Shown here: in pieces, positions 2,479 through 35,262 of the stretch
Position numbering within the stretch: the stretch's first letter is position 1
Layout of the letters: each line of letters begins with the position of its first letter
Source of the DNA: Xestospongia bergquistia
Lineage: Eukaryota > Porifera > Demospongiae > Haplosclerida > Petrosiidae
Assembly: GCA_963965975.1 (NCBI GenBank)
Contig: OZ014411.1
Location: 10,107,501-10,171,500, forward strand
DNA: 64,000 nt
Reading direction: 5' to 3'
The notes under the pieces: model-generated
Told to the model about the DNA's origin: nothing
Databases searched by the model: none
What the model saw: only the letters and a program-made list of their open reading frames with translations
Program-made: the position numbers and the translations under genes

Positions 2479-5400
2479 CACTGAAACCAATTCATCATGA
2501 CTTTGTAGTGGGGGCTCAGTTAAGTTCAAAAGATCAGTGGAGAATAGTAAGTTTACTAGTAAATAATACAGTATACTGCATGTGTTAGTGTATAATCAAG
2601 AGATATGGCCAGAAAAATGATTATCACATTCAATCTATTACAGTATATTGCATTGAAAGAACTGTTAAAGTTGGCTACTAGGTTTATTCCAGCACCTACT
2701 TGCCATTATTGATTATTTCCCAATTATTTGCATCTTTATATAGATAGTAGGTCCTTCTCTCAATGGAGAACTAGGAACTAACTAAACAGCCAAGTTGTTC
2801 CTCTACTTTCTTCCTATAGTAGCATGTACATAGCCTCTTCATAACTCAAACTATTCATGAATTGATAGTTTCATACAGTGGCGGATCTAGGAAAAAGTTC
2901 TTGGGTGAGCCCTGAGGCTAATTATTCACACTATTTGGATTCATTAATTTACAACTAATTATGTTCATTACCACATTTCTATGAGCCTGTCTCTAGTACT
3001 CACTTTAATGCTTGAATAGTGTTAAGTTATTATTATTACTTGATCATATCCCTTGTGAATCAACAAAAGAATAGAAATAAGTTTAATTAAAATAACTTCT
3101 TAAGAATATGTAGGGTAGCAATACCAAAAATTATTGAAACAAGGTGGGAAGGGATAGCTGAGACAAAGATAGATTGTTTTACTTTAATTTACATTAAGAG
3201 TGAGTAAGACTCCACTGCAATAGTATAAGTGTTGTTTAATCCAGATTCATATTATTCATTAGTTATGTAGTGGTAAATAAGATATCTAAACATATCTACA
3301 ATATATATATATGTAAACATTGGTTGACGAGTCCAATTGCTTATAACACTATGTAGTTAATCATCCAATGGATTCTAATTAAATTCAATTCCATGTATGG
3401 CTATATACTAGATGGATAATATATGCTAATTATATTAAGTATACAAGATTTATACTTGTTGGTGTTTCTTAGTAAGTACTCATATATAGCTAGTTTGTGT
3501 TACAAGTCTATGCATACACATCTCTAATAAATCCATATGATTCCCAAAATTCAGTGATCATATTGACTATTGAACAACCTGCTAATATGGAGTACCATAT
3601 ATAGAGTCATATTCATGTATGAAACTCATATAAAGACTGACATGTTAAAGTGTCATATTTTTTTTAGCAGTGTGCTAATTATGTAGGGATTACTACATCT
3701 CTACATTGTTTCAATAACTTTTTGCACTACAGTATGCATGTATGTGTTAGTTCCAATAATATAAGAATATTATGTCAGTTCCACCAATAAATTATACACA
3801 ATATATGAATATTGGTAGAATAATGATATATTGAGTTACAATAACACTTTATATTTCTTACTATCTCCTTTATTTTTAAAGTGACATTTATCATACTTGA
3901 ATTACAAGTAATTATGATTATATATATGATAATAGTCCAACTCTGTTTATAATACTAAGTTATTTGAATTAGCAGTGCCTGTTATTGTCAATAATAATGA
4001 TATCCTTGATTTCCTAATCCATGTTTTATTTAGTGCTAGAGTCCCAGAGGAAAAGGTCATACTTTAATGCTAAATCAATCCAGTTAGGTTCCAAGATATA
4101 GGGTTTAGAGTCTAGGGTATTGTTTAAGTTCATATTGAAGCATTGCATTTTCTGCTGGGACTGTCTTTATTAAAATGAAACTCTTGTATTTCCTTGTAAA
4201 ATTGCTACACTTTTTTTTTCAATAATATTCAACTAGTAGTAAGGCTACATTTACATTTGTTAATAATCCAAATTAAAATTAATTCTGAACCTTCCTATAG
4301 ATTACTTATAACCTAAAAACCAGTAAATGATAACTTATATTTGACAATATTTTAAAGTAAAAAAGATATGCAGTTATGTTTAAAGAATAGTTGCTATTTC
4401 ATGTCATTGCCTAATTTTGTGCTTTGTAATTATAAAAATTTCATAATTTATAGGTATTTCCTGGTTGCTTAAAATTTTTTGGGTCATAAAATAAATTTTT
4501 GAGAATCTAAAAGTTAATTTTAGTCAATAAAAACTTACTAGTAAATGCTTTTGTTAAGTAGGCAATGTAATTTATATTTAAGAGTGATAGTCTCTGTTAG
4601 TTATATACATAATCCTAATTACATCCTGTTCTTTTTATAAAAATATTATCACTTTGTGTTTTGTGTTTTTGATTTATTCTCTAATTTTATTAGTCTCATA
4701 TAATACATGTAGCTGTGTACAGTTTACTATTTTGCAAATGATCCTTTATACTAACTCAATTAAAAAAACATGAAGCACGGATCATATGAAAAAATTACCA
4801 CTGCTAATATGCTACTGCTATACAACAGAACTAAAAAGTAGCACAAGACATTTAACACTAACTCACAAAACATCACAAAGGAATGCAATAATTATGCTTG
4901 ATAAAATACCACAATAATGATAGCTTTTCTTAATATATAGGACAGAGAACTTTGGAAGTCTGCTGAAAAAGGACATTTAAAGGAAGCCACACAAGCCCTT
5001 CAAAAAGGAGCAAACTTACAATATCGTCATTGGGTAAGATCCTATTACTTTACCTTTAACATTATTTGTATTAACTAACTTAAGTAATTAATTATATATT
5101 ATGTAGATTTAATAGTATTGATTGTTTTAGCCACACCTAGATTTTAGTTAAAAACTTCAATACTTACACAAATTTGTATTTATTATTCTATTTGTTAAAG
5201 TTACTGAGTTTGTATTCACATATTCTTTTCAGGTAGTGTTTTTAATGTTGCCGTATAATTTAAGTGAATGAAACATATTGTGTGATATAAACGTCTTAAT
5301 CATTGAAACTTGTTAATGTAAATTAATAGCTTTATTGTATACACGTATTTGTAATTTTATTTTATTTCATATATTAAAATATCTTTGTTTATTATTTAGA

Positions 5401-16806: not shown

Positions 16807-17502
16807 TTAGTACCCAAACTTTTATATTTTTTTTACTTTTTATATATGCCTTCTTCATGTATTTCTTTGGTATATCTAGGTCAGTAAATACACTAAAAAC
16901 TTAGAAAGTCTATACCCTTACATTTATGTTATGCATGGCTGCTGCTAATTTTTTTAAATTTATTTGTTAATATACATTACAAAGTAATCTCTATTATATC
17001 AATAGCATAAAACATGAAGCAATCCACGATTACATTACTACAACATCTCATTAAAACATATGCGTCGTCATTCAGTAATTGCCTTATAATTTTCTATAAC
17101 ACAATCTTAATAATAGTAGTGGGTTGTTATCTAATGTAAATGAGTTAATTAATCAACAAGATGTCTAAAGAGTTGAACTAGTTGGTCGAATTTATCTTGT
17201 GCATCCTACAATAGTGCTATGTAGCTAGAGTATATAATATAGTACTAACTTAACTAGCAAAGTCTTGTTTTGTTTACAGTGTTAATTAGTTCCACTATTT
17301 TTAGTTGTAAATCTCTCCAGGAGACACACCCTGCATTAGTTGAGGATTGAAATGAAAGAAAAGAATAGGATCATGATATTCTGAGATTAGATTGCAAATT
17401 TGCAAGCAATTGTCTCCAACTCACTAATCAATTAGAAATAAAACATCGTGTAATATATAAACTAACAACATTATACTGTCAAACATCCAACATGGACATA
17501 AC
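16807..17502. other. ROCO 3' flank with decayed minus-strand ORF tail
   Basis: This flank resembles 37.9-38.4 kb and 1.4-1.77 kb, so it travelled with the CARD-like exon. On the minus strand, 17150-17290 matches the two exons annotated at 38248-38477, but the upstream exon carries in-frame stop codons. This copy is therefore a relic. Nothing else is supported here. Confidence 0.6.
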
Positions 17503-18753
17503 TTAAGGTAAAAATATCTGAAAATTTTTTTCAGCTTTTTTTGATGGAATCATGTAAAGATACTTGTTCTAATAATTGATCATGCTTTAAAAAACTTTTT
17601 AAACCCTAGTACTTTGCAGAAATGTAGTTTGATTCCTTAATATCTGCAATGTTTGGAGACGTCAAATAATAATATTAAAGAACCTAGAGAGCTGAAACTT
17701 TTGAAAATTAAAGATGAAGTCAATTACTACAATTTTACGGATGGATTTATTTCTATAATAATATTTGACATTTTTACAAAGCTATAAACCTTCCCTACTT
17801 TAATCACTATTATTATTACATGTTATACAAATCGTACAAAGAAATGCATCCGTAAAAGTACTAAAAATTGATCATTTTCGTTCTTGAACTTGTCAGCAGG
17901 TTGTTACATTATCCATAGAATCAAAAATCACAACAACAGTATCTAACAGTGCAAAAGTCGCCATCTTGATAATGAATAATCGATTTTTATTAATTAAAGC
18001 CAATGAATACACTTAGTGTCAGGTTATTGATAAGTGACTTTCGCGGGGTTAAAATAGTTAAATATATTATTACTATTTTTATTATTGTTGTTATTACTGT
18101 TATTAAAGCATGGTCTGCTTTGAGATGAAGGCACATAAGACTACGAACAATAATAACAATAATAATAATAGTAATAATAATTAATACATTTTATTTAACT
18201 ATTTTAACCCCGCGAAAGTCACTTATCAATAACCTGACACTAAGTGTATTCATTGGCTTTAATTAATGAAAATCGATTATTCATTATCAAGATGGCGACT
18301 TTTGCACTGTTAGATACTTTTGTTGTGATTTTTGATTTTATGGATAATGTAACAACCTGCTGACAAGTTCAAGAACGAAAATGATCAATTTTTAGTACTT
18401 TTACGGATGCATTTCTTTGTACGATTTGTATAACATGTAATAATAATAGTGATTAAAGTAGGGAAGGTTTATAGCTTTGTAAAAATGTCAAATATTATTA
18501 TAGAAATAAATCCATCCGTAAAATTGTAGTAATTGACTTCAACTTTAATTTTCAAAAGTTTCAGCTCTCTAGGTTCTTTAATATTATTATTTGACGTCTC
18601 CAAACATTGCAGATATTAAGGAATCAAACTACATTTCTGCAAAGTACTAGGGTTTAATAAATTTTTTAAAGCATGATCAATTATTAGAACAAGTATCTTT
18701 ACATGATTCCATCAAAAAAAGCTGAAAAAAAATTTCAGATATTTTTACCTTAA
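17503..18753. mobile_element. Long-armed foldback (palindromic) element
   Basis: Two arms of about 600 bp are near-perfect reverse complements, meeting at a short spacer near 18100-18150 flanked by AAT/ATT microsatellite. The outer ends are TTAAGGTAAAAATATCTGAAA and its complement. The arms contain no substantial ORF. A single diverged arm is found at about 38766-39372. Long-armed foldback elements of this kind are usually non-autonomous DNA transposons. Confidence 0.85.
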
Positions 18754-19040
18754 AATGTATACATAAACAAAAATTTCAAACTGAGGAAGAAGAAACTATT
18801 GCCTAGCTCATGACCATATTTGAAAGTTGAGTATATGTGTGAACATTAAACATTTTCTTATAAGGTCATCTAAGTGTGATTTAGACAGTTACGATATACA
18901 CCAAAAAAATCATTTAGGAGGCGTGGATCTAATAACTAGCTCACTGATCCTAGTAATCAATACGCACAATAGCATTAATGATATTCATAGGCAACAAACA
19001 GCGCGCCCCACAAGAGCATGAAGACAAAATCTGCAGTATA

Positions 19041-19047
19041 TATAAAA
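19041..19047 (+). promoter_or_regulatory. TATA box of structured RNA copy 1
   Basis: TATAAAA lies 34 nt upstream of the first base of the core's closing stem. The same box sits at the same 34-nt distance in copies 2 (23640) and 3 (34282). This spacing fits an snRNA-type promoter (Pol III type 3) or a Pol II TATA promoter; the T-run terminator favours Pol III. No transcription data are available. Confidence 0.55.
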
Positions 19048-19074
19048 GGAAATGAAAACCACCATGGATAAGTT

Positions 19075-19432
19075 ATGTTGTGGGCCAGCGTTCTGCAATG
19101 CATCAGACCTCTGAGATGGTTACCAGCATACTCTTCGGAGTATCCGAAAGGCCGACTAGGATAGGGCTGGTAGTCTCCCTTTAAACGAGAAGAGGCTGGT
19201 GTATTTGTGGTTCCCGGTTCCCGAATGCGATATTCCCTAAGAGCTGGAATCCCGTACGGCTGGTTTTAAGTTAGGGCGATGCTCCAGCCAGGATTACCTC
19301 GTCTTCGGACGAGGGTTACCAAGCCAGGTGGCAGTCCCAGCTAGCAATAGCAGGGAATCCTGGAGCCTAAGTGGAAGCCTGAGTGGGTGAGCGAGTAGGA
19401 ATCGTTTGGGCAACACAACATGTTTTTTTTTT
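19075..19432 (+). ncRNA. Candidate 347-nt structured RNA, copy 1
   Basis: This GC-rich block in AT-rich surroundings begins with ATGTTGTG (19075-19082) and ends with its complement CACAACAT (19414-19421), giving a closing stem. A run of about ten T follows. Visible internal helices are TACCAGC/GCTGGTA (19121-19127 with 19166-19172); a UUCG-capped hairpin ATACTC/GAGTAT; a UUCG-capped hairpin CCTCGTC/GACGAGG (19297-19314); a GNRA-type GCTA-GCAA-TAGC hairpin (19340-19351); and a long-range stem GCTCCA plus GGATT with AATCC plus TGGAGC. All reading frames are interrupted. It does not match RNase P, MRP, 7SK, SRP or spliceosomal RNA signatures as far as I can judge. It could be a Pol III transcript, a SINE-like element, or the untranslated part of a transposon. 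Confidence 0.55.
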
Positions 19433-19974
19433 ACTTTGACTAAATCCTTGCTTTATTTTAAACTACAAGAATTGTCAGTCAATCCAAAGTAAAGTTAATG
19501 TTAATTTTTAGTTGCTAAAACTCAAAATTAAATGACATATTGGAAGTTCCTTTAATTTCAGTTCAACATCACACTAACTATAATATGTGAGACATCACGG
19601 ATGTTGTCACCATATAGATATTTGATGACAACATCCGTGATGTCTCACTGATTGAAGATCTCCTTGCAATTGTGCTAGCGCTATCATCACAACATTGTCA
19701 ATATTATAGTTTTCAATGGATCCTGGATAATAAGTTTCACAATTAGTCAGTAAGCTTGTTTGGAATAACAAAACATACCTTTTTTAAATGTAATAGAAAT
19801 ATGTTTATAATACTTCAGAACATTTTCAACTTTTGATGTTTTACAATATTAATTGATCAATTTTTAGAATTACTTTGCATTTGTCTAAATTGTAATAACT
19901 GTTTATTTGCCCTTTATCCACTTGAATTGTGGCTAAGATATTAAAGCTACATATTCTCTAACCATGGCCAGGAT

Positions 19975-20388
19975 TAAATCTGATCCTTTCCAATATCACT
20001 AATGTATATAGTATCATCGTGTACTGTAATGCATTTAATTCATCCTTTTTAGTGAACTGTCCTATATATACATCATTTGAAGAGAATTCTTGAATGCATT
20101 GATTGTAGTCATCAACCACCAATAGGTGGCCTTCTTTAGTAAATGCTAATCCCCAGGGTCTCGTTCCTTCAACTGAAAGGAAAGATTTAAATGTGAAATC
20201 AGCACCGAGGACTTGAATTCGATGATTATAGCTGTCACTAACATAGATATTGTTTGTTGTAGGATGAATGGCAATATCAATTGGATAATCAAACTCCAAT
20301 GGACCAGTACCCTTACTTCCTGTCAGTGAGATAAACTTTTGATTTAATTTTTTGCTACCTATTAAGGTGTTTAGTTGATTGTATTATC
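19975..20388 (-). pseudogene. NHL-repeat fragment (TRIM/NHL-type beta-propeller)
   Basis: The minus strand is open for about 130 codons and reads roughly two NHL blades. The diagnostic elements are FDYPIDIAIHPTTNNIYVSD, NHRIQV and a second blade RPWGLAFTKEGHLLVVDDYN. Such repeats form six-bladed propellers in TRIM-NHL proteins. Only a fraction of a propeller is present, with no RING, B-box or start exon. The frame ends inside the boundary of the dispersed repeat at 19973, so the 3' part appears cut by that junction. Most likely a gene fragment; an exon of a longer minus-strand gene is possible but no partner exons were found. Confidence 0.65.
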
Positions 20389-21656
20389 ATATATACATGT
20401 ATTTTGTATGCACAAATACAGCTGGGGTAATAGGTGTGGTGTCTCCTCTCAGCAAAAGAAAAAAATATAGAAAATTTTATTTTTGCTGTGCTATTAAGGT
20501 GTATAATTGATCATATTAGTCAAGTTCATATGTATTTTATATACATAAACACAGTCAAGACCATTGCAGGAGTAGATGTAATGTCTCCTTCCAACAAAAA
20601 TGGCAAATTTATAATTTTTTTTGGTTGGCCTATTATGGTATCTAGTTGAACATATTAATAATAACTTGTTGATGATAAAAATTAAACACATTTTGGTAGT
20701 TTCTAATTGATAATTGTTTTCCAATCAACACTAAGTATAATCTCTAATTTTTTAAACAAGGTAATGGGTTCTGCAGCAATAAATTTGAAGATATCATTCA
20801 ATGTTTATTTCATTTATTACGTTTCTGTTGACATATATGTAGGTTTGGTTGTAATGTCTTTGTTTTATATATTGTGATAATTTTTGACTTTAATTTTGTC
20901 TATTTTAGCCAATTTAATATTAGTATGCACTCTCATGCTATACACAACAATTTATATTATTACTGTTATTCCTCAGGCACCTTCGTCTGGTTTATTGAGT
21001 TAAATGTAAATATTACATATATATTCTTAATCTTTGTTAAATAAAGAAAAAATTACAAACATTATGACTGCCCCACATGTTGATATGGTAACGCCCACGT
21101 AACACCAAAAGTTGTTGCTTATTAAACACTTGGCTTGGTAGCATTCAGGCAATGAACCATTTTGATATAATCATATCAATTGAAGATCATTCTAACTGAT
21201 CAATTACCTGGTCTTCCTCAGTTATTTCTAATTTGTTGTACTATCACTTCAGTGTAGTAGGTGCATGATACAACAATATGAAACTGAAAATGTTATTGAC
21301 AATTCAAGTAGCTGTGTATAACACAATTACTGCCCATTATACAACTGGTTTTAGGATAGTTTCCTATAATATTTCTATGATCCTTCTAACACTGAGCTAA
21401 GTCTATTAAACTTGGAATCAAAAACATCGACAATGTGTTTCTTGTACCCTTCTAGAGAAGTACTCTCAGCCATGACTAACAAGTAACTAGGTCACCATAT
21501 TATGCCAATCTAACCATTGTCTGCTTAGTAAGGCCCAGACCCAAATTGCAGTATTCGGGTGAGACTTATGCATTGCTATATTTCTATCACTTGCTTGCTA
21601 GAGCCTAGAAGACATGTAGTAATTCAACTGTATTAACTGATCATCTCCTCAATAAT
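20389..21656. other. AT-rich spacer with a diverged tandem repeat
   Basis: A unit of about 125 bp, recognisable by CTATTAAGGTGT and GTCTCCT, occurs near 20350-20460 and 20480-20605, with a weaker third copy near 20630-20700. From 20760 to 21656 I see no gene or clear repeat. Confidence 0.5.
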
Positions 21657-22080
<424 letters not shown>

Positions 22081-22679
22081 GGACTGCAACAAGGTAAGTC
22101 GAAAGCCATTGGCTTAAGAACGTTATCCAAAGCTGGAGCACTTGAGGAACTAAAGGAGCTGTTATAAATTTAGATAACGAAGAAGAGTGTTTAGGTAATG
22201 ATTTTTATTTTTTAAGCCCCTATAAAATTAAAATAATTATGATAAAAATTATTATCTTTAGTAGTGTTGTTCTAGTTTGCTTATTAAGTAGGACTAGTTT
22301 TATTCTTGTCCCTTAAAAGTTACAGTATTTTAGTAGTATTAATTATTTTAACAATCTTTTCTTTTAAATAAAACTTTCTCCTGTCGATCCTATCAAAAAC
22401 AGTATAATGATAAAACAACAATTTGGCAACAATTCACTTATAATATCATTTTTAGCTTTCTTGTATTTATCTCTGACTATGTTTTATTAGTAGTTAGGGG
22501 TCAATTTTTCATTATTAAAGAAACATGTTAAAAGAAATCACAAAGTATGTGAAGCACACATATGACAATTGCATTGTACACTCACCCCTAGACCTAAACA
22601 TTGCTAAACCTAATTTGTACAGCAAGTATACACTCAAATGAATTACATTTACAGAACAAATACGGTTAATATTGGTTTT
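22081..22679. other. Spacer, nothing recognised
   Basis: AT-rich sequence between the zinc-finger relic and the tandem repeats. No ORF, hairpin or repeat that I could support. Confidence 0.4.
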
Positions 22680-23160
22680 ACAATGTTAATACATTAATAA
22701 TACAATCATTGAATTAATTATCATCACATATACAATTGTAGAACTACTAAAGAAAAGCGATGTATTATTTACATCTGTTTTACGATGTTAATGTATTAAT
22801 AATACAATCATTGAATTAATTATCATCACATATACAACTGTAGAAAAGCGATGTATTATTTATAATGGTTTTACAATGTTAATACATTGATAATACAATC
22901 ATTGGATTAATTATCATCACATATACAACTGTAGAAAAGCGATGTATTATTTATAATGGTTTTACAATGTTAATACATTGATAATACAATCATTGGATTA
23001 ATTATCATCACATATACAACTGTAGAAGTACTAAAGAAAACGATGTATTATTTACATCTGTTTTACGATGTTAATACATTCATAATACAATCATTGTATA
23101 TAATTATATTGATAATACAACGTTAATACATTCATAATACAATCATTGTATATAATTATA
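22680..23160. repeat. Tandem repeat, 90-103 bp unit, about five copies
   Basis: The phrase ACAATGTTAATACATT recurs at 22680, 22783, 22873, 22964 and 23065. The units differ in whether they carry the GAACTACTAAAGAAAA stretch. All include AATACAATCATTG. It is noncoding. Confidence 0.85.
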
Positions 23161-23290
23161 TTGATAATACAACGTTAATACATTCATAATACAATCATTG
23201 TATATAATTATATTGATGATACAACGTTAATACATTAATATTACAATCATTGGATATAATTATATTGATAATACAATGTAAATCATTGAT
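23081..23290. repeat. Tandem repeat, 52-bp unit, about four copies
   Basis: Units containing TACAATCATTGTATATAA start at 23081, 23133, 23185 and about 23237. The unit appears to derive from the end of the adjoining 90-103 bp repeat. It is strongly AT-rich and palindromic in part (ATACAATCATTGTAT). Confidence 0.85.
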
Positions 23291-23514
23291 GATACAATCA
23301 TTGTATTTTTTTTAATATTGATTTTAATGTAAATATTACAATCATAAGATTATTGTCTGATAATTTTATCACTAATATTGTATAATTGTAAAATTTCATC
23401 CAAAAAACCATCAATATTACATCCATTGGTAAATATGCATACATATATAGTAATACAACTGATGTAAATATATTATTTTCCAAACATCGTATTTAGACTT
23501 TTTTCCCTGTGGTT

Positions 23515-24657
23515 GCTATAGTAATCATGTTCACAGATGTCGTTAGCTCACTGATCCTAGTAATCAACTAGCGTTAATGATGTTCATAGGCGACAAACAG
23601 CGCGCCCCACAAGAGCATGAAGACAAAATCTGCAGTACATATAAAAGGAAATGAAAACCACCTTGGATAAGTTGTGTTGTGGGCCAGCGTTCTGCAATGC
23701 ATCAGATCTCTGAGATGGTTACCAGCATACTCTTCGGAGTATCCGAAAGGCCGACTAGGATAGGGCTGGTAGTCTCCCTTTAAACGAGAAGAGGCTGGTG
23801 TATTTGTGGTTCCCGGTTCCTGAATGCGATATTCCCTAAGAGCTGGAATCCCGTACGGCTGGTTTTAAGTTAGGGCGATGCTCCAGCCAGGATTACCTCA
23901 TCTTCGGACGAGGGTTACCAAGCCAGGTGGCGGTCCCAGCTAGCAATAGCAGGGAATCCTGGAGCCTAAGTGGAAGCCTGAGTGGGTGAGCGAGTAGGAA
24001 TCGTTTGGGCAACACAACATGTTTTTTTTTATTTTTAATAAATCTTAGCTTTATTTTAAACTACAAGAAATGTCAGTCAATCCAAAGTAAAGTTAATGTT
24101 AAGTTTTTGTTGCTAAAAGTCTAAATTAAAGGACATATTGGAAGTTCCTTTAATTTCAGTTCAACATAACACTAACTATAATAATATGTAAGATATCACG
24201 GATGTGATGTCTCACTGATTGAAGGTCTCCTTGTGCTAGCGCTATCATCACAACATTGTCAATATTATAGTTTTCAATGGATCCTGGATAATAAGTTCCA
24301 CAATTGAGTCAGTAAGCTTGTTTGGAATAACAAAACATATCTTTTTTAAATGTAATAGAAATATGTTTATAATACTTCAGAACATTTTCAACTTTTGATG
24401 TTTTACATTATTAATTGATCAATTTTTAGAATTACTTTGCATTTGTCTAAATTGTAATAACTGTTTATTTGCCCTTTATCCACTTGAATTGTGGCTAAGA
24501 TATTAAAGCTACATTTTCTCTAACCATGGCCAGGATAATATAGATTGTGTGTAAAATAGCAACATTATTCTACATTTCTGGATATCTTCCTGTAATCCAT
24601 ATCAACTAAATTACAAGATTAAACCAGCAGTCACACTCTACACTCTCAAAACCTAAA
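23515..24657 (+). repeat. Dispersed structured-RNA repeat unit, copy 2
   Basis: Matches copy 3 (34148-35262) from GCTATAGTAATCATGTTC through the GC-rich core and AT-rich tail to the CACACTCTAC region about 120 bp beyond ACCATGGCCAGG. Relative to copy 1, the 22-bp palindrome in the tail is mostly deleted. The core has no net length change. Confidence 0.85.
23674..24030 (+). ncRNA. Candidate 347-nt structured RNA, copy 2
   Basis: The core spans 23674-24020, again exactly 347 nt. The closing stem is GTGTTGTG with CACAACAT, its first pair a G-U wobble where copy 1 has A-U. TATAAAA lies at 23640, 34 nt upstream, and nine T follow the core. One helix carries a mismatch here (CCTCATC against GACGAGG), so this copy may be slightly decayed. 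Function unknown. Confidence 0.5.
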
Positions 24658-26090
24658 TCAAAGATTGTCTTTTGCATTAACTTTGGCCTGTACTAGTGTA
24701 CTCACAAGTCAAAGAGCACAATGATGACTTAACTAACTTGTTGTTAATTAACTTATACAACACAAACCTGCAGCAACCTCCACCCATGTAAATAATTAAA
24801 TAGGTGTTACATATATTCTATGATAGAGGAAATAATGAGTACTTCCTTAAACCCTAACTTTTAAACATACAAACATTATCCTAAGTGTATTACTGTTTAG
24901 GGCTTTTCTTTTTGGTAAAACAGTGCTTTTAGATAGAAAGACAAAGTAAGTTCTGTTACCCTTGTGTTTCTATATGCATAGATAATGACGAGTGTTAGTT
25001 GCTAGGTCATTTGACAAGAATAGTCTGAGTAAGCTAGATATTTCTATGGATAAACAATTCTTATTGAGTCATATATTTAACAGACTTTGTACATTCATTC
25101 ATATTGGTACATTACTCTCAACAAAAAATAGGGGTTTTAAAATCACATAAACATTAACAATACTCCATAGTACATACTCTTTTATATGAAGTCTGAACCA
25201 AAATATGATTCCATACCAAATGCATCAAATAATAAATGCTACTTAATGGCAATGATACAAACCAATGATACTAAAGTGACTGGATCAAATAGTAAATGCT
25301 ACTTAATGGCAATGATGCAAACCAATGATACTAAAGTGACTACTTTGTATAAATTTGATATTAAAATAAATGACTACTTTATTTTAGTAATTATTATGAC
25401 ATTGCAATGATACAAAATGATACTAAAGTGACTACTTTGTATAAATTTGATATTAAATTAAAGGACTACTTTATTTTAGTAATTATTGTGACATTAAAAT
25501 GACTACTTTAGTAATTATTATGACATTAAAATGACTACTTTATTTCACATTTAGCATTTAATAATTATAATGATAAATGTTTTTTATGCAATGATTATAA
25601 TGATAAATGATTTTACATTATGCAATGATTATAATGATAAATGATTTTACACAATGACACTAAGATGACGTTTTTACACAATGATACTGACATTTAATAA
25701 TTATGATAAATGTTTATACAATGATTATAATGATAAAATGTTTTTACACAATGATACTAAAATGACAATGATACTAAAATGATCACTGCCCAGTGAAAGA
25801 CTCCATAGCCTTTTATAAATAGCAAATCCGGCTGTTTTTTTTCACAATTACAAAACTGCCCAGTGAAATACTCCAGCCTTTTGTAAATAGCAGCTGGAAA
25901 CTGTTTTACTTGCTGCTCAAATCAAGTACTTGTCCTTTGCTGCCCAGTGCTTATAATAAAACTTCAGAATTACAATAAAACTTCAGAATTACAATAAAAC
26001 TTCAGAATTACAACGTGGTTTAAAACTTGCTTACAATGACAATTAAAAAACTTGGCTTACAACGATGCTTACAATGGCAATTAAAATCGA
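24658..26090. repeat. AT-rich spacer with low-complexity tandem repeats
   Basis: 24658-25180 shows nothing recognisable. 25186-25500 has short tandem copies around CTACTTAATGGCAATGAT and GATACTAAAGTGACTACTTT. 25560-25780 is built from ATAATGATAAATG-type units. 25790-25990 repeats CTGCCCAGTGAAA and AAAACTTCAGAATTACAAT. The CTGCCCAGTGAAA motif resembles the ROCO G4 region (CTGCGCAGTGAAA at 14099), suggesting that repeat was seeded by gene fragments. Confidence 0.6.
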
Positions 26091-26720
26091 TTAGGAAGTG
26101 TTGCTGTCCAATTAGTAATTGGTGAAAAGGAACCATACCTCTGTATTGCCCCTCTTGTGAACAAAGCTCTCTTTACTGACAGAAACAAAGATCTCACTAC
26201 CAGATCACTATGTCCACCATACAGAATTGGCTTCAGTACCCCTCTAAATTGCTATCTTCCAACAGATTAAAGAAGTTGCTGTTAGCCTAGATTAATTATG
26301 TTCCAAATTAATCTAGGTCTTGCTAAATTCCAAATTATACATGCTAAATTCAAGTTATACAAACAATATTCCTACGTATGTACCTCAAATCGTGCTAAGT
26401 TTCATGATCAGGTTCAATTGAAGGGGCTCCAATTGCAAAGCCAATAACTTTAGTGAACGTCACCCAATATGAGAAATTCGTATCTTGGTAATTACGATGA
26501 AATTTCAGGTTACCTGAAATTATCAAGAAAACAAGTTCAATCTCCATGTCAGGTAGCTCATGAAGGCATCAAGAACTACTTTTCAACCCAAAATCGATCA
26601 ACAGTGTTAGAATTAGAAGAGATCTAAATCGATCAACAGTGTTAGAATTGGAAGCAAAGATCTCATCTTGTTTCTGGCTAACAAAATGGTGCTGACAAAT
26701 GCATTGATCGTGATTGCAAA
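26090..26720 (+). pseudogene. Scrambled ROCO gene fragments
   Basis: Three stretches match the ROCO exon out of order. 26095-26230 resembles about 15290-15420 (late COR region); 26250-26320 resembles about 14305-14370; and 26590-26720 resembles about 14395-14560, with a tandem copy of ATCGATCAACAGTGTTAGAA. Frames are broken throughout. These are rearranged duplicates, not exons. Confidence 0.75.
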
Positions 26721-27276
26721 CCAACTCTCAAGATAGAAGACAGCTATCTTATATACTTTACAAAGACAATGGTTACAATACATATCAACAACTAGAGTGT
26801 TTAAACAAATACACACATATAAACCAGACTACAGTGTTCAATTGTCTTCAATTGTCTCTATATACATGACAGCTGAGTACACTATGACAACTGAGCACAC
26901 TGTCTTTACATGATACATTTCCCCTTTTATTTGAAATTAGTATATGTTACATAATTTGGTGACTTACACATTGGATATCTTCCTGAGTGGGAAGTCAGTT
27001 TTTGTTGGTATCCATTGGGGTGGTATCATTTGGTATACTGGCTACATAGGAGAGATTTAGGTGGTCACTAGTAATGTGTCTTCATGAGTCAATGGTTGAT
27101 TCCTTCCTGTTTGAGTATCCGGTCCTGAAGTGTACTCTGGGTTAGTAAATGGCAGTGTTAAGTCTGTATCTTCATTTAATTTAGAGTGTGTCTTCTTCGT
27201 ACATTAAAGGATTATCCCTATTGTTAAGTTGAATGATAGACAATTTTGGACCTGCATAAAATAAAACCAGGGACCG

Positions 27277-27324
27277 AATGATTCTCACCCTTTGCAATTT
27301 TTTTTGCAAAGGGTGAGAATCAAT
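27277..27324. repeat. Perfect 18-bp-arm hairpin
   Basis: GATTCTCACCCTTTGCAA (27280-27297) is followed by a T-run and then by its exact reverse complement (27304-27321). Possibly a minimal MITE or a relic of a larger inverted repeat. Confidence 0.7.
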
Positions 27325-27591
27325 ATAATGCTACTTCTACTGCAAAACATCTTGGCTGAGTATTTTTGTTGGCAACTTGTTCTTAGATATATTGTTTACA
27401 TTGTACACAATCCCTTAATGTTGGTTTCTGTAGGTCCAGTCTTGATCTCAATTTTATTCCATTAACAGTTCATTAATAATCCCATGGTGGTATGAGGTGT
27501 CAACCTGTAATAAAATAGGAACTTTGATATTCTGTCTGTTAGAGTTCCTGTTGCTATTTTCTTCAGACCATCCATGAATGTGAACTACAAT

Positions 27592-27850
27592 GTTCAATTT
27601 GTCTCTACATAACAACTCAGCACACTGTCTTTACGTGCATGACAACTTAGCACACTGTCTTTACAAAACAATTGAATACACTGTCTTTACATGACAACTC
27701 AGTACACTGTCTTTACATGACAATTTGGCACACTGTCTTTGCATGACAACTCAATATACTGTCTTTACAAAACAACTGAACACATTGTTTTTACAAGACA
27801 ACTTGGCACACTGTCTTTACATGACAACTCAGCACACTGTCCTTACATAT
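27592..27850. repeat. Minisatellite, about 27-28 bp unit
   Basis: About nine to ten copies of a unit resembling CACTGTCTTTACATGACAA, with variable ACTCAG/ACTTGG spacers. Two or three further copies occur near 26850-26920. It lies just upstream of the next ROCO pseudogene block. Confidence 0.8.
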
Positions 27851-27879
27851 ATATCAAACAGTACACCCATGTACTTCAA

Positions 27880-29045
27880 AACAGTTTGCTATTGCACCTG
27901 CTAACATTAAAGCTGTCATGGAAAAAGAACAGAGAAGTCGTATACTAGTACTCTATGTAAAGGAATACTAACAAGAGAAAACATTACTTCCTCTACTGAT
28001 GCATGAAAGTGTTGCTGTCCAATTAGTAATTAAGGAACCATACCTCTGTATTGCCCCTCTTGTGAACAAAGCTCTCTTTACTGACAGAAACAAAGATCTC
28101 ACTACCAAATCATTATGTCCACCATACAGAAGATGTATGTGGGGACATCCACACCATATCTCTGTAAGACAACATCTTAACAATTTAGTATTTTCACTGG
28201 ATGTAAAATCCCTTTGGTATGTTTACATTCATTATCTCTTAACTAAGTGTCTATGAAATTCTTTTATCTTCTCTTTATAGAGTATACCTTCTCCACCAAT
28301 ATAAGATGAAGTAATGCAAAGACTATCAAAATATTTTCAGACAAGAACAGCAAAAGGTTCTAATTTTGTCTGTATTCTTATGTATTGACTTAGTGATTAT
28401 TACAGATTTTATTAACCCTGTTACTAAACCTGACAAACAGATATCATCATCTATTATATGGAATGTCGGAGGTATGTCAACACAATTGAATATTTTCAAT
28501 AATTTACCAATTATATAATTTAGTTTGTTTATTATTTAATTTTCTTATTTTTATATCTACCCACTTTTACATTTGATTACTTTCATTAATTGTTATATAT
28601 TGGTATATTAGTAGTTAGGAGCCAATGTAAATTGGATTACCAACGTTAAAAGGATTACCAAACTGATAGATTCAGTCATTTCACAAATGATTTATGTTGA
28701 GTAATCTTATTATATGACAGTACTTAATCTTATTATACTTACTGTTGAAAGTCTACAAGATGTAAAGTTTTAATCCAACTAGCTGATGGTGATGCTTTAT
28801 GTTGTAATATTGGAGTGAGTGATAATATCCTTCAAGGTTTGGCTAATGGCAGCATGCAGAATTAAACAAAACTTGGTTATTTATTCAGAATTTGTTGGAC
28901 ATGAATGGTCAAGATGAAGGTACTCACGTTACTTGAAGTGCCATTTTAGTTGGTATAAGTTGTCCACTTGTTAAGAAGAAAGCTCATGCTCTGACATTAT
29001 ATGAATACTTAAAACTAGAAAGTTCCAGATACTCAATGTAAGTAT
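27880..29045 (+). pseudogene. Degenerate ROCO 3' half (COR end to Death domain)
   Basis: This block follows the parent order. 27885-28205 corresponds to about 15165-15530. 28280-28356 corresponds to the 15584-15659 exon, keeping its acceptor and a GGTTCT donor. 28740-29040 corresponds to the Death-domain exon. The COR part has frame breaks, and the Death domain has a stop after the ANGSMQN stretch and lacks the conserved Trp region. Between them, about 28405-28471 is a possible extra phase-1 exon (residues FINPVTKPDKQISS) not seen in the intact gene. The block is a decayed paralogue. Confidence 0.7.
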
Positions 29046-29499
29046 GTAATAATATTTTTAGTTATTAGAATTATATAGACTGCTTGCAATTTCATGGTCA
29101 CTAAAGATGTAGCAAATGTAATCACATCAGCCATGTTGATGATCATCATGTTAGGAGACATTTTGTCATAGCTTTGCATGTATCTTTGTTATGGAACATG
29201 ACAGTAAAATATTGATTATGAGATAATTAGGAAGTTTACCTGTGGGTAACCAAAAGAGTTCAAATGAACAAGTTTCAAATATCAAGCTATTATTGTGTAC
29301 ATACCTTTTATCATAAGTAGTAACAGTAAACATGTTGGAGAAGAGTCCTCTAGAGGTGATGATAACACTAGTACATATATACACTAGTATATATTATGTT
29401 CATTGAAACAAACAAAAACATATTTGATGATCAAACTGATGGTAAGTTACTCTGACCATATCATTTAACCTGTACATGATTACACAATCATTCCTATGT

Positions 29500-29880
29500 T
29501 CTATGTATTAATAAAAGTGTTTGTGAGTCTTTGCTGAGGACAGTCACAGAGTTAATGGTAAGTTTTGCATCACTATAATTAGTAAAAAGTGCATCCATTT
29601 ATCCATCCATCCTTCCTTCTATTTTACTCCTTTCATTCATCTAACAACTCAGCTTTTTTTTAATTATTAGAGTATCCTCCATCTAGTCCAGAGCACATTG
29701 ATAAACTCAAGCAGTTGTTTGGTCATTCCAGATCCAAACTGTAAGTTTAATAAATAATATAGAATTGTTTTAAATGTATTTATTAATATTTTTATTAGTG
29801 AACAATGGAAGGTTATTCATTCAATACTTTACAAGAAGCAGGATAACTGTGCTGTCATAACAACAGATATATGTACAATA
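29500..29880 (+). other. Candidate exon relics of a ROCO/CARD paralogue
   Basis: GACAGTCACAGAGTTAATG followed by GTAAGT (donor near 29558) is shared with the exon ending at 36488. The next candidate exon, about 29672-29741, starts in the matching phase and reads EYPPSSPEHIDKLKQLFGHS. A third candidate begins near 29800 (EQWKVIHSILYKKQDN) but soon meets a stop. The phases fit the 36.4-37.9 kb gene, so these may be remnants of a related gene's linker between Death and CARD-like domains. Coding status is uncertain. Confidence 0.35.
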
Positions 29881-31720
29881 GTAAATTTAAACCCAAATAG
29901 GCTCAGTAGCTAATGGAAGGTACAGCTGTGTCTAATTAAAGGGTTATAGTTATCAACATTCACAGATCATTGGAACTGTTCCCTAAAATATTTACAGCTG
30001 TGATTAATCAATCATTAAGAGAAATATCAAACCATGACTTGTGTCTCTTATGACAAGATCCACTATAGGCAATGATATCATCGCTAATAAAAGGATTGGA
30101 CCAGATTGTAGTCATATTTTAAATTCATTGTTTGCCTGCAGGTATGTTCCTGTGATTATTATCATAATTGCTTATCTCCTTATCAGATTGTCATCGTCAT
30201 GTGTGTTACATATTGTTAACATTAGCAGACACTACAATGTTTAATTAGTACCAAACATTTATTCCCAGGAATAAAATTATAGCCATGCTGTTTTACATAA
30301 CATTATAGCCTCCTGGTATAGCTAGCAATTGCTATCAATTTGTGTCCTCCAGTGTCCACTGAATCACCCTATTTTTCAGAATTCATGCAATCAACCAGTA
30401 AACATACATATTGTGAATGTATAAAATCAGGTATTTTATATATATATTGTAAATTTAAAGTTAAAAATAATTCAAATTAATACAAAATTATGCTGTTACA
30501 CAGGAGTATGTTTACTGAAGGTATTATTACATCTATACAGCATGTACAGGTATAGCAGTGGTACAACAACACTTTCATCAGCATCTCTTGTTCAAATTCT
30601 ATCAAGTAAAAGAGAAAATACACCAAATATTAGAGCTTATTATTGCAAACAGATCGATATGCACAAATCATTTATTCCTGGTAGATACCAAATGCTCAAG
30701 AGTATTACATCCAACTAGTAAAAAATTAAGCTGAATTATTTGATGCAAGGTAAGGCCTTGTATCACATTTTTAAAACGTTTATTGTTGAGTGCACGACAA
30801 AAACTAGTAGAACAATTTTTTTGTGACTAGATGGAAACAGGTTACAATTCAGTAACCTGTTTATCAGCTATCTGACTCAGTCACAATGACATATAACAAA
30901 TGTAATTGCAGCAACAGTAACACAAAGACTAGTAGTGTGCTTGAATTGAAAATACATGTTAGTAATGATATTAAGAATGGTGCTCAATATTAATATATTG
31001 AACAGGGTAACTTCCATCTGTCAATGTTGTATCATTACCACTACCCTTGCTAAACTTAGAGAGGTCTAGCCACACCCCTTCTTTCATGGCTATATTATTA
31101 TAACAGATAAAAGAGAAGACTAGTCCATGGTGCTGGGGCAGTAAAACACAATATAAATTGTCTTACAGAGTGCGTTAACACACAATAGTGTAAAAGTATC
31201 GCAGACACTTTTGCCCAGGTTGGTATATGTTAAGATGGCCTGTTGTAAACTACATAATACACGCCATTTGGCTTTGTTTGATTTACCAAATTCAACTTAC
31301 TGGCAACTGTAATTACCTCAACTGTAAGCTATTATTCAATATGTATTAATGATTATATAGTTTTTGTGTATAAATACTTTTATTAGCGGTTCTTGCACTA
31401 GCTTGTCTGTTATAAAGTGTTAATGTAATATTTTACACCAGATTTTAGCATGTGAGGATTAGGGATAGAGAAATATGGTTGTATGTTTATGCAACAGGTC
31501 ACCTAGCAATGTGCACTATAAATAGAACACAATACATGGTACTGTGTTTAGATTTAGAAGCCTCTAGAGTGTGGAATCAATTGATGATGTAATCCTTTGA
31601 ATGATCACATGAAGAAAACCAGATGTGAAATTATAGACTATTAGATATTAACTTATAATCATAGAAAAGATGAGTTGTAACAAGTACCAACTATCACTTT
31701 GCTTCTATTTATTTTATCTT
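29881..31720. other. Spacer, no supported gene
   Basis: AT-rich sequence. A possible short exon near 30505-30550 (between CACAG and GTATAG) is too weak to call. No repeat structure was recognised. Confidence 0.3.
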
Positions 31721-31727
31721 TTTTAGT

Positions 31728-32286
31728 GATGTGACACCAGTGTATACCTTACCACAGATTACTACTAATCTGATGGTAGCACAATTGAACAAAGATTGTG
31801 TATTATCTGTTAATGAGAGTGGAGTCATGTCTGCTGTAGAGGTTGGACATTACTCCTTACAACAGTAAGTTTTATATACAAGAGAAGTTAACAATAAAGT
31901 TTTAATTGTACAGTGGGAATATTGTTGAGGGTTTTAAATTAGAAATAGACCCGTTTACAGATTTGCTAGCTTTTGCTACACCCACAGAATTTATTTCTAC
32001 AGTTTTGTAATTAATATGCTCTTTCTCCTTTCCTTTTTTTTGGATAATTTTCAAATGGTCTTTTTTGTGATCACATACTTGTCAAGTCCTCCTTTGTTAC
32101 AATTACTAGTAATCATAGTTAGTATACACTGTGCACAAATACACTATAATATTATTGTTGACTGTATATCATTATTATAGATCTCAAGATGAATGGTATC
32201 AAATGGTAGGTGAAGACTCTGATGGCAAACAATTAACTTTATCTAGAGATAGTAGTCTCAATACATCAAAACCAAAACATGGAAAG
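31728..32286 (+). other. Two candidate coding exons of unknown gene
   Basis: About 31728-31867 follows a TTTTTAG acceptor. It is open for about 46 codons (VYTLPQITTNLMVAQLNKD and onward) and ends at a GTAAGT. About 32181-32286 follows TATAG and is open in the compatible phase (SQDEWYQMVGEDSDGKQL), ending at GTATAT. A third open stretch near 33260-33401 (VLKPLHVNVPYSKDAERQW) ends at GTACTT. The phases are compatible, but no start, stop or domain was recognised, so these could be an unfamiliar gene or chance. Confidence 0.3.
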
Positions 32287-33469
32287 GTATATTATAGACA
32301 CATTTGGAACCCAGTACTGTAGATCCTTAGCATAAACGTGTCCTCATAGTATTGCATACATAGAACTAGAATAATTGTTCTCAATTTATGGTATCATTTC
32401 TGAAATGTTCCACTGTAGTAATAATATTTGAGAGAGATTGTGCCATGTTCAATAGTTTCTTATGTTTGTAATAATTCCATGACAAAATTTGTATACTTAC
32501 TAACTCAATGAAGTATTTATCTTCTAATCCTCCATTTATGGTATTGCTCATCATGTTGGTGGTAATGAATACATGGGCTGGGGACTGGAGGTAGAGACAC
32601 CACTGGACTAGGTGGGAAAGGTAGTCCATACAGACTAGATGCCTGGTCATAATGCTTCCAGCTATCTGATAAAGAGAAGATGGCTGTACCCATAAGGTAT
32701 GGGAGAATCTGTTCTTGATACATACCAGTAGTACAACCATAGTAGTGGCTGTATCCAACCTAATTCTTTTTAAAATTATTAATAAGTGCAATAATGTCAA
32801 CAATGTGAGGTGATATTCCACTTGTTAGCTATTATTGAGACTCTTTATGATAATTTTTATAAGCTATTGTTATGGAGTTTAGAGGTAAAGCAAGCTGCTA
32901 ATGAACTGTGACAAAGGCATGAAAAGAGAGGTATATATTGAAGGAATTAATGGTTATAAAATTAGTAGTAATGCTGGCCTTGTCCCTAGTTACCCATTTA
33001 CTAAATATTAGAAAGTCATTATTAGTAATTTTAGTGTTATAATGTAATAAGAACACAAGAACCAATAATGCATTTTCTTTATAGTCTGTTTCTAGCTGTT
33101 TGCTCTTTCAATAACTATACAAGTTTATTACGTGTTTTTATCAAGTATATAAAAATTATGTATAATTAATCGCTCTCTTGCTAGATTGTAGGAAATAGCT
33201 ATAAATGAACCACCTCATAAGATGTATACACAGACAAAGAGCGGATAAACAAATACAAATGTTAAGAACTATTTTAGAGAATATTCAGGTCAGTTAAGTG
33301 GAAGTGTCTTAAAGCCGTTACATGTAAATGTACCTTATTCTAAGGATGCTGAGAGACAATGGTTGAGGCACCAAACATTTGGTGATTTTGATGATAGGAA
33401 GGTACTTTAATATGTACTCTATACACTTTTGTAATGAAGATTTTATACGTAGTGAGATTCCCAACTTGT

Positions 33470-34130
33470 TAATAGCAAATCTGGCTTTCGTTTTCACAAT
33501 TACAGAGAACTGCCCAGTGAAAAGACTCCAGCCTTAAACATTGTAAAGAGCAAACCCAGCTGTTTTGATTTCACAATTACAAAGAACTGCCCAGTGAAAT
33601 TTCTCTGCTGCTCGATTTTAACATCAAGTACTTGTTGCTTGCTTACTGGTTCAACCCCAGGACAGTAGACTAAATCGACCAGCTGCAGGAATAAAATGAG
33701 AGCATGCAGCTAATTAGCTCAAATCAAGTGAGGAGTTTGATTATACCACTGAAAGGGTTGGTGTCTTTTAAGAGAAGGTTTTGCTGAAGTTAGTACCTAA
33801 AATCTATCCTACAAGTCACAGTAATTCCAAGAAAATCTAATTACTGTGACTTGTAGGATAGATTTTAGGTACTGTTAATTCGCTTCCTTTATGTCAAGTA
33901 CTAGTTCTTGGAAGTCACATTGACGAACTGCCCAATGAAAAAACTTGCTTACAATGACAATGGCAATTAAAATTAAAAGTGAGCATTAAGCTAATTAGCT
34001 CAAACCAAGTACTTGCTTACTGCTTTAAAACTTACTTACCTCTGTCTGGAGGAAAATGTGAGCATAAAGCTAACATAAAGCCAACATTGTTGACAAATGC
34101 ATTGATCGCGAGTGCAAAGTATTAATTATT
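33470..34130 (+). pseudogene. ROCO fragments and derived short repeats, with palindrome
   Basis: Contains repeated CTGCCCAGTGAAA-type units as at 25.8 kb. A segment at 33896-33945 matches the ROCO G4 region (TTGGAAGTCACATTGA). There is also a snippet of the CATTGATCGYGAG region. A hairpin with arms of about 34 bp lies at 33793-33872. No frame is kept. Confidence 0.6.
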
Positions 34131-34147
34131 TTAACAGTCTCATCGAT

Positions 34148-35262
34148 GCTATAGTAATCATGTTCGTAGGTGTCATTAGCTCACTGATCCTAGTAATCAA
34201 TACGCACAACTAGCATTAATGATATTCATAGGCGACAAACAGCGCGCCCCACAAGAGCATTAAGACAAAATCTGCAGTACATATAAAAAGAAATGAAAAC
34301 CACCATGGATAGGTTGTGTTGTGGGCCAGCGTTCTGCAATGCATCAGACCTCTGAGATGGTTACCAGCATACTCTTCGGAGTATCCGAAAGGCCGACTAG
34401 GATAGGGCTGGTAGTCTCCCTTTAAACGAGAAGAGGCTGGTGTATTTGTGGTTCCCGGTTCCTGAATGCGACATTCCCTAAGAGCTGGAATCCCGTACGG
34501 CTGGTTTTAAGTTAGGGCGATGCTCCAGCCAGGATTACCTCGTCTTCGGACGAGGGTTACCAAGCCAGGTGGCGGTCCCAGCTAGCAATAGCAGGGAATC
34601 CTGGAGCCTAAGTGGAAGCCTGAGTGGGTGAGCGAGTAGGAATCGTTTGGGCAACACAACATGTTTTTTTTTTAATAAATCTTAACTTTATTTAGGAAAT
34701 AAAGTTAATGTTAATTTTTAGTTTCTAAAAGTCAAAATTAAAGGACATATTGGAAGTTCTTTTAATTTCAATTCAACATAACATTAAGTACGATAATATT
34801 TGAGATATCACTGTGATGTCTCACTGATTGAAGATCTCCTTGTGCTAGTGCTGTCATCACAATATTGTCAATATTATAGTTTTCAATGGATCCTGGATAA
34901 TAAGTTCCACAATTGAGTCAGTAAGCTTGTTTGGAATAACAAAACATACCTTTTTTAAATGTAATAGAAATATGTTTATAATACTTCAGAACATTTTCAA
35001 CTTTTGATGTTTTATAATATTAATTGATCAATTTTTAGAATTACTTTGCATTTGTCTAAATTGTAATAACTGTTTATTTGTCCTTTATCCACTTGAATTG
35101 TGGCTAAGATATTAAAGTTACTTTTTCTCTAACCATGGCCAGGAGAATATAGATTGTGTGTAAAATAGCAACATTATTCTATATTTCTGGATATCTTCCT
35201 GTAATCCGTATCAACTAAATTGCAAAACCAGCAGCCACACTCTACAATCTCAAAACATAAAT
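34148..35262 (+). repeat. Dispersed structured-RNA repeat unit, copy 3
   Basis: Closest to copy 2 and alignable over its full length. Tail indels are scattered, including loss of much of the AACTACAAGAA stretch after the T-run and of the internal palindrome. The core shows no net indel. Confidence 0.85.
34316..34673 (+). ncRNA. Candidate 347-nt structured RNA, copy 3
   Basis: The core spans 34316-34662, exactly 347 nt. The closing stem is GTGTTGTG with CACAACAT. TATAAAA lies at 34282, 34 nt upstream, and ten T follow. Both UUCG hairpins and the GCAA-loop hairpin are intact. By its paired regions this is the best-preserved copy together with copy 1. Function unknown. Confidence 0.55.

Follow-up and report, generated by a model that had tools for sequence, protein, structure and literature searches.

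A stretch of 64,000 nucleotides (nt) from the genome of the sponge Xestospongia bergquistia (assembly GCA_963965975.1, contig OZ014411.1, positions 10,107,501 to 10,171,500; here called the window) carries on its plus strand three copies of a GC-rich core, at 19075-19421, 23674-24020 and 34316-34662 in window coordinates, which are used throughout unless a contig or locus is named. These copies very probably belong to an undescribed high-copy family of genes for a structured RNA, which is predicted to be transcribed by RNA polymerase III (Pol III) from a type-3 promoter and likely serves as scaffold of a ribonucleoprotein (RNP). Judged from its sequence this is a real, large and constrained family of gene units of the small nuclear RNA (snRNA) type, the RNA of which lies outside the families searched. 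The genome search covered 146 Mb in 21 contigs; the labels C1-C7 for contigs and L0xx for loci are internal to this analysis.

In a preliminary description of the window the cores had been noted as equal in length and as preceded by TATAAAA at a constant distance, and measurement of all three copies bears this out: each core is 347 nt long, they are about 99% alike, and the first letter of TATAAAA lies exactly 34 nt 5' of the core in every copy. Their GC content is 53-54% as compared to 26-39% for the window in 2-kb slices. The run of 8-10 T said to follow the core directly is present too, with 10, 9 and 10 T in copies 1, 2 and 3, respectively, but one G intervenes each time. Out of 26 plus-strand TATAAAA motifs in the window only three, namely those of the present copies, are followed by T8 at 380-395 nt. 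Two TTCG loops and one GCAA loop are found in the cores and each caps a predicted hairpin, as had been proposed. The 8-bp closing stem ATGTTGTG/CACAACAT is all Watson-Crick in copy 1, but copies 2 and 3 begin with GTGTTGTG. The three are local duplicates of one another, for their likeness continues, with indels, into part of the 5' flank and over about 500 nt on the 3' side.

The original label of a three-copy family describes the window's share only, as the genome carries hundreds of copies. In a DNA search with the core, identity was 97-100% in all 40 matches scored (the best 40 of 416 candidates). A 27-nt pattern of the core 5' end was found at 661 places in the genome and a 39-nt pattern of the 3' end at 302, each with up to 3 mismatches and each with no match for the reversed pattern, while a pattern of the upstream promoter, which lies outside the predicted RNA, gave 321 places versus 2 in the control. 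At least part of the 5'-end surplus comes from divergent copies (about 80-84% alike, for instance L015 and L023) with a more altered 3' end. The pattern counts and this surplus are the reason why we describe the family as one of roughly 300 genes that appear near-intact, plus several hundred copies that would be more divergent or decayed.

Counts of individual features refer to a set of 54 full-length copies at 94% identity or more, 41 of class A and 13 of class B, from which the divergent copies L011, L015 and L023 are excluded. The 5' side of the stem reads GTTGTGTTG in 40 of the 41 class A copies and forms a 9-bp pairing with CAACACAAC. Counted from TGTTG, the core measures 339 nt in 36 copies, 341 in 16, 340 in one and 333 in one; the earlier observation that core length does not change thus holds for the three window cores, but in the set of 54 lengths vary, mainly between 339 and 341 nt. 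This 2-nt step consists of CGAA in place of TC-UUCG, and its occurrence in both classes (33 class A and 3 class B copies, by core length) points to gene conversion between the classes on top of selection. Larger core indels occur in L011, L015 and L023, which by their sequence look decayed. Random indels in the core, which had been named beforehand as a sign against a constrained RNA, are present in these three copies and absent from the 54 near-identical ones.

The evidence for the type of transcription unit comes from a conserved block 66 to 10 nt upstream of TATA, which had escaped the first description. In aligned copies with otherwise unrelated flanks it consists of a distal TTAATGA-ATTCA element, whose distance to TATA varies and is 66 nt in the window copies, followed by an element resembling a proximal sequence element (PSE), CCCCACAAGAGCATGAAGACAAAATC, and then by TATAAAA. 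In copy 1 the distal element TTAATGATATTCA lies at 18975-18987, the PSE-like element at 19006-19031 and TATAAAA at 19041-19047; the predicted RNA extends over 19070-19422, thus containing the core, and the predicted Pol III terminator T10 over 19423-19432. The corresponding features of copy 2 are at 23574-23586 (distal element, TTAATGATGTTCA), 23605-23630, 23640-23646, 23669-24021 and 24022-24030 (T9), those of copy 3 at 34216-34228, 34247-34272, 34282-34288, 34311-34663 and 34664-34673 (T10), all on the plus strand. The RNA starts at 19070, 23669 and 34311 are put there by analogy with U6, in which the model start is 29 nt after the first T of TATA. TATA lies 35 nt from the core in 40 of 41 class A copies and 34 nt in the remaining one; in class B the distance is 36 nt in 11 of 13 copies, and the other two lack TATAAAA and carry TATATAAA. 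At the 3' end all 54 copies have a T-run of at least 3 and 53 have one of at least 5.

The animal's own U6 genes (RF00026; L054 and L055) share this arrangement. They have a distal element (TTAATGAAATTCA / TCAATGATATTCA), the motif CCC--AA...CAAAATC and TATAAAA at equal spacing, and a T-run at the end; their RNA, however, is unrelated and about one third as long, and U6 occupies two loci (best 48 of 15937 candidates scored) as opposed to hundreds. The CCCAC...ACAAAATC element stands in the same TATA register upstream of both U6 genes and, less exactly, of the nuclear RNase P RNA genes (RF00009; L057-L059), and an ATTCA element akin to the distal one is also found upstream of these five genes at other distances. 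When scored against 12 randomly chosen family promoters, TATA being left out, the five upstream regions reach 24.7-35.2 as compared to a mean of 16.6 and a maximum of 20.3 for 58 other TATAAAA sites of the window (z 5.1-11.8; none of the 58 controls as high). An upstream PSE-like element and TATA at fixed spacing, in common with the animal's own U6 genes and in register with RNase P, support the Pol III type-3, U6-like layout that had been proposed from the window alone. Of the internal promoter elements, the B-box consensus occurs in none of the 54 copies; a loose A-box consensus fits 53 of them, which alone means little.

Promoter and RNA also travel together. For 62 of 72 exact promoter places on C1 and C2 the exact 27-nt core 5' end follows 57-65 nt downstream, with a distance of 64 nt in 58 cases, and on C1 the exact 39-nt core 3' end lies 354-363 nt away in 45 of 52 (361 nt in 37); places are chosen here by promoter and not by core, although exact promoters may favour intact genes. 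As to the ten without an exact 5' end, L074, L077 and L078 carry a copy of 95-98% identity, and C1:10560037 and C1:28070825 have the exact 3' end in place, which accounts for five of the ten.

Beyond the unit, likeness is lost quickly. In 820 A-A, 78 B-B and 533 A-B pairs, the median extent of homology is 107-109 nt upstream of the core (upper quartile 149-231) and 20-41 nt downstream of it. Median divergence in 51 copies is 0.9-1.5% for the core, 12-20% for the promoter and 7-35% for the spacer between TATA and the start. Alignable flanking sequence shows a divergence of 11.1% on the 3' side (flank higher in 195 of 199 pairs) and of 12.8% on the 5' side (154 of 156 pairs), whereas the cores of the same pairs differ by 1.1-1.2%, and core divergence stays at about 1% while flank divergence ranges from 2% to 25%.

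Folded one at a time, 17 copies give pair probabilities that concur in a terminal stem, a 5' domain and a 3' domain. The predicted 5' domain is a stack of helices and has a UUCG-type loop, which reads UACG in many copies; the 3' domain contains the UUCG hairpin, a short hairpin and the GCAA hairpin. A model of 84 pairs was assembled from these probabilities and by eye and compared with an alignment of 27 hand-chosen rows (15 of class A or B, 4 divergent, 8 partial), so that it leans towards these sequences; its positions are paired in 97.1% of cells as compared to 35.1-44.6% when the model is slid by 1-3 columns. Three pairs of the model show double changes that preserve pairing: columns 8/373 of the terminal stem are U-A in class A and G-C in class B, columns 186/219 change from A-U to U-A in one row, and columns 276/281 from A-U to G-C. 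Both strands of the terminal stem differ between the two classes, which nevertheless keep it, with the outermost pair 7/374 lost in class B. Finally, two 7-bp helices of the 3' domain, GCUCCAG/CUGGAGC and CCAGGAU/AUCCUGG, are mutually exclusive and both are kept in nearly all 27 rows; in terms of the model, they may make the RNA a conformational switch.

Several observations weigh against a family of constrained genes that encode a structured Pol III RNA. Matches to the 5' end of the core are more than twice as many as those to its 3' end (661 versus 302), and many copies must therefore be divergent or decayed. The copies used for divergence were mostly chosen by core likeness and those below 94% dropped, which inflates the contrast with the flanks; the promoter-selected tests (62 of 72 and 45 of 52), which are free of this bias, agree with constraint. 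The gain in fold energy over shuffled sequences is modest (z -2.26, 1 of 100 as good). At least three double-change pairs arise in 33 of 500 shuffles, and the 17 further pair types do not exceed shuffles, so the covariation is suggestive only; RNAalifold predicts 35 pairs from the same alignment, without a double change in any of them. Lack of covariation had been named at the outset as evidence against an RNA family, and with three double-change pairs covariation is weak yet not absent. Moreover, 53 of the 54 cores contain an internal TTTT, a sequence that stops Pol III in some organisms.

As far as searched, the earlier statement that the RNA matches no known class stands. Rfam gave no family match for the window at the gathering score and, at E up to 10, a single copy from each of the classes A, B and C had hits of chance level only, far below the cut-offs (mir-4003, mir-219, WT1-AS_2, Qrr). 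U6, signal recognition particle (SRP), RNase P and RNase MRP RNAs can be rejected as identities because their Rfam models match other loci and not the window; Metazoa_SRP, for one, is matched at a separate locus of the same genome, and this match, like the HEXIM gene mentioned below, marks the genome as that of an animal. RNase P RNA is nevertheless similar in length, has complementary ends and shares the promoter type, but its Rfam model does not match the family, and RNase P and MRP RNAs are encoded at other loci; at least five matches to the RNase P model were found in the genome among the best candidates scored. Three similar RNase P RNA genes with this promoter type lie about 8.6 kb apart at C5:8258235-8275789. 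A telomerase RNA was considered as well, since all 54 copies contain TTAGGG and 52 of them CCCTAA; but the two are paired with each other in the model, the template-type CTAACCC is found in none, and a copy number in the hundreds is a further argument against it. Protein coding is rejected on account of 2-nt indels between near-identical copies and of the lack of any stop-free frame above 63 codons in the three copies tested. A tRNA scan of the window found none, exact 22-mer scans of viral-contig and genome-contig collections gave no match, and no title or abstract opening among the openly licensed PubMed Central papers that literature searches turned up describes such an RNA.

But could the RNA be this animal's 7SK (RF00100), too divergent for Rfam and present in unusually many copies? 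The genome encodes HEXIM (E 4.5e-31), an animal-specific protein, and the Rfam 7SK model matches nothing in it, with the best 19 of 1429 candidates scored, which does not by itself show absence. Size, structured nature, type-3 promoter and the long 5' hairpin of the family RNA fit 7SK, which is about 330 nt long. Its 3' end fits less well, in that 7SK has the SL4 hairpin there whereas in our model the U tail follows directly after the terminal stem without an SL4-like hairpin; nor, at E up to 10, was there a 7SK match in the single copies tested from classes A, B and C. GAUC, the HEXIM site in the 5' hairpin, is called a hallmark of 7SK SL1 in PMC10083321, yet GATC occurs in only 2 of the 54 family copies and is missing in 52. 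This test is not absolute, since GAUC can be lost: a Drosophila 7SK-like RNA has GAUG instead, according to PMC8406779, and all 54 family copies contain GATG, which is weak as a 4-mer. Hundreds of intact genes, moreover, would be unlike other 7SK, the human RNA being encoded by a single gene (PMC10083321). Taken together, we regard a 7SK identity as improbable.

More improbable still is that the family is the cargo of a DNA transposon or other mobile unit and that the likeness of its copies reflects recent spread only. While hundreds of dispersed copies on both strands, some of them at repeated spacings of 4,314-4,315 bp, and a slight enrichment of inverted repeats at the borders (mean 6.94 for own borders versus 6.54; at least 8 nt in 28% versus 18%) would be compatible with such cargo, divergence in alignable flanks far exceeds that in the cores, homology past the promoter and the T-run is ragged, and the borders carry no direct-repeat signal. 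The transposon that captured an RNA, raised as an alternative in the preliminary description, thus finds no clear support, given ragged borders and no clear direct- or inverted-repeat signal. A short interspersed element (SINE) or other retroposed repeat is hardly credible, for in spite of the high copy number and of some partial copies that comprise the 3' part only, the core is accompanied by a promoter that is not part of the predicted RNA (62 of 72 places), no copy of 54 has a B box, border direct repeats are without excess (own mean 6.72 versus 6.57 in mismatched pairs; 53 copies), and the partial copies at L065, L073 and L007 keep T-run and 3' flank as expected of DNA duplicates, so that of the match to a SINE or long interspersed element (LINE) envisaged earlier no SINE signature (B box, direct repeats) was found.

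Our preferred reading remains that these are genes for a structured RNA made by Pol III, which might work as follows. The distal element, the PSE-like element and TATA would set a start about 30 nt after TATA, and the T-run would end the transcript about 353 nt after that start. The RNA would fold into a closed particle, with the terminal stem joining the ends, a 5' hairpin domain and a 3' domain; with its terminal stem and U tail it would most likely be the scaffold of an abundant RNP, like 7SK, 7SL, vault and Y RNAs, and several hundred genes would supply a high dose of it. snaR, vault and Y RNAs likewise have several genes for a structured Pol III RNA, but they are shorter, their genes are far fewer, and the vault and snaR promoters are internal. 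Copies may have spread as DNA, by local tandem duplication and perhaps by exchange between chromosome-end regions, with selection and gene conversion keeping the transcribed part alike.

The list of type-3 Pol III RNAs in animals is short and old (U6, U6atac, 7SK, RNase P, MRP, Y). We would give even chances to the fuller proposition that the sponge RNA represents a structured noncoding RNA class without an Rfam relative, encoded by about 300 animal genes of the snRNA Pol III type, many near chromosome ends, and forming an abundant RNP that is maybe also a switch. If true, an abundant RNP of one lineage has gone unnoticed, with hundreds of genes versus at least two U6 and at least five RNase P matches, and the family would be a clear case of concerted evolution among dispersed Pol III genes. 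Sequence, promoter and predicted ends offer a direct handle for finding this RNP.

The copies are loosely clustered, 47 of 97 successive exact 5' ends on C1 and C2 being spaced 3.5-18.5 kb. The count relative to contig ends uses C3, C4, C5 and C7 (C6 left out, later contigs absent), where at least 22 exact promoter places exist; of the 22 listed, 13 are no more than 0.5 Mb away from a contig end, against an expectation of 2.2, and 19 no more than 1.5 Mb, against 6.7; of the 15 clusters listed, 9 are within the 0.5-Mb distance (1.5 expected). C1 and C2 show no equally simple pattern. Exchange between chromosome ends would account for copies that are alike and yet dispersed, with no need for transposition. 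One family copy (C5:8814549-8814890) is found about 1.6 kb from a U6 match (C5:8816535-8816639) on the same strand, near a contig end.

Within single loci, 3' parts of the gene are repeated downstream with T-run and flank, at 2026-2155, 3439-3546 and 3694-3833 of L065 and at 665-804 and 922-1060 of L073; their sequence suggests tandem DNA duplications, i.e. not retrocopies. In L007 a class A gene (1501-1846) is followed after about 0.8 kb by the 3' half of a copy (2628-2787) which has a class B end and a T-run of its own, so that the two classes mix within one cluster. At L062 (C1:5717500-5727400) the RNA genes are spaced 4,315 bp with repeated open reading frames between them, one of which resembles what we take to be a pogo/Tigger-like DDE transposase.

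In the window itself, the open reading frames adjoining the repeats presumably belong to death-domain/GTPase-like genes, the largest of them having no Pfam match. Directly upstream of copy 1 is an inverted repeat of 614 nt, 96% complementary, with arms at 17492-18105 and 18151-18764 and a gap of 45 nt, which could result from palindromic duplication or be a foldback element. The 3' flank of copy 1 holds a near-perfect hairpin, ATCACGGATGTTGTCA...TGACAACATCCGTGAT, at about 19593-19650, which is missing in copies 2 and 3 and may be a small foldback insertion.

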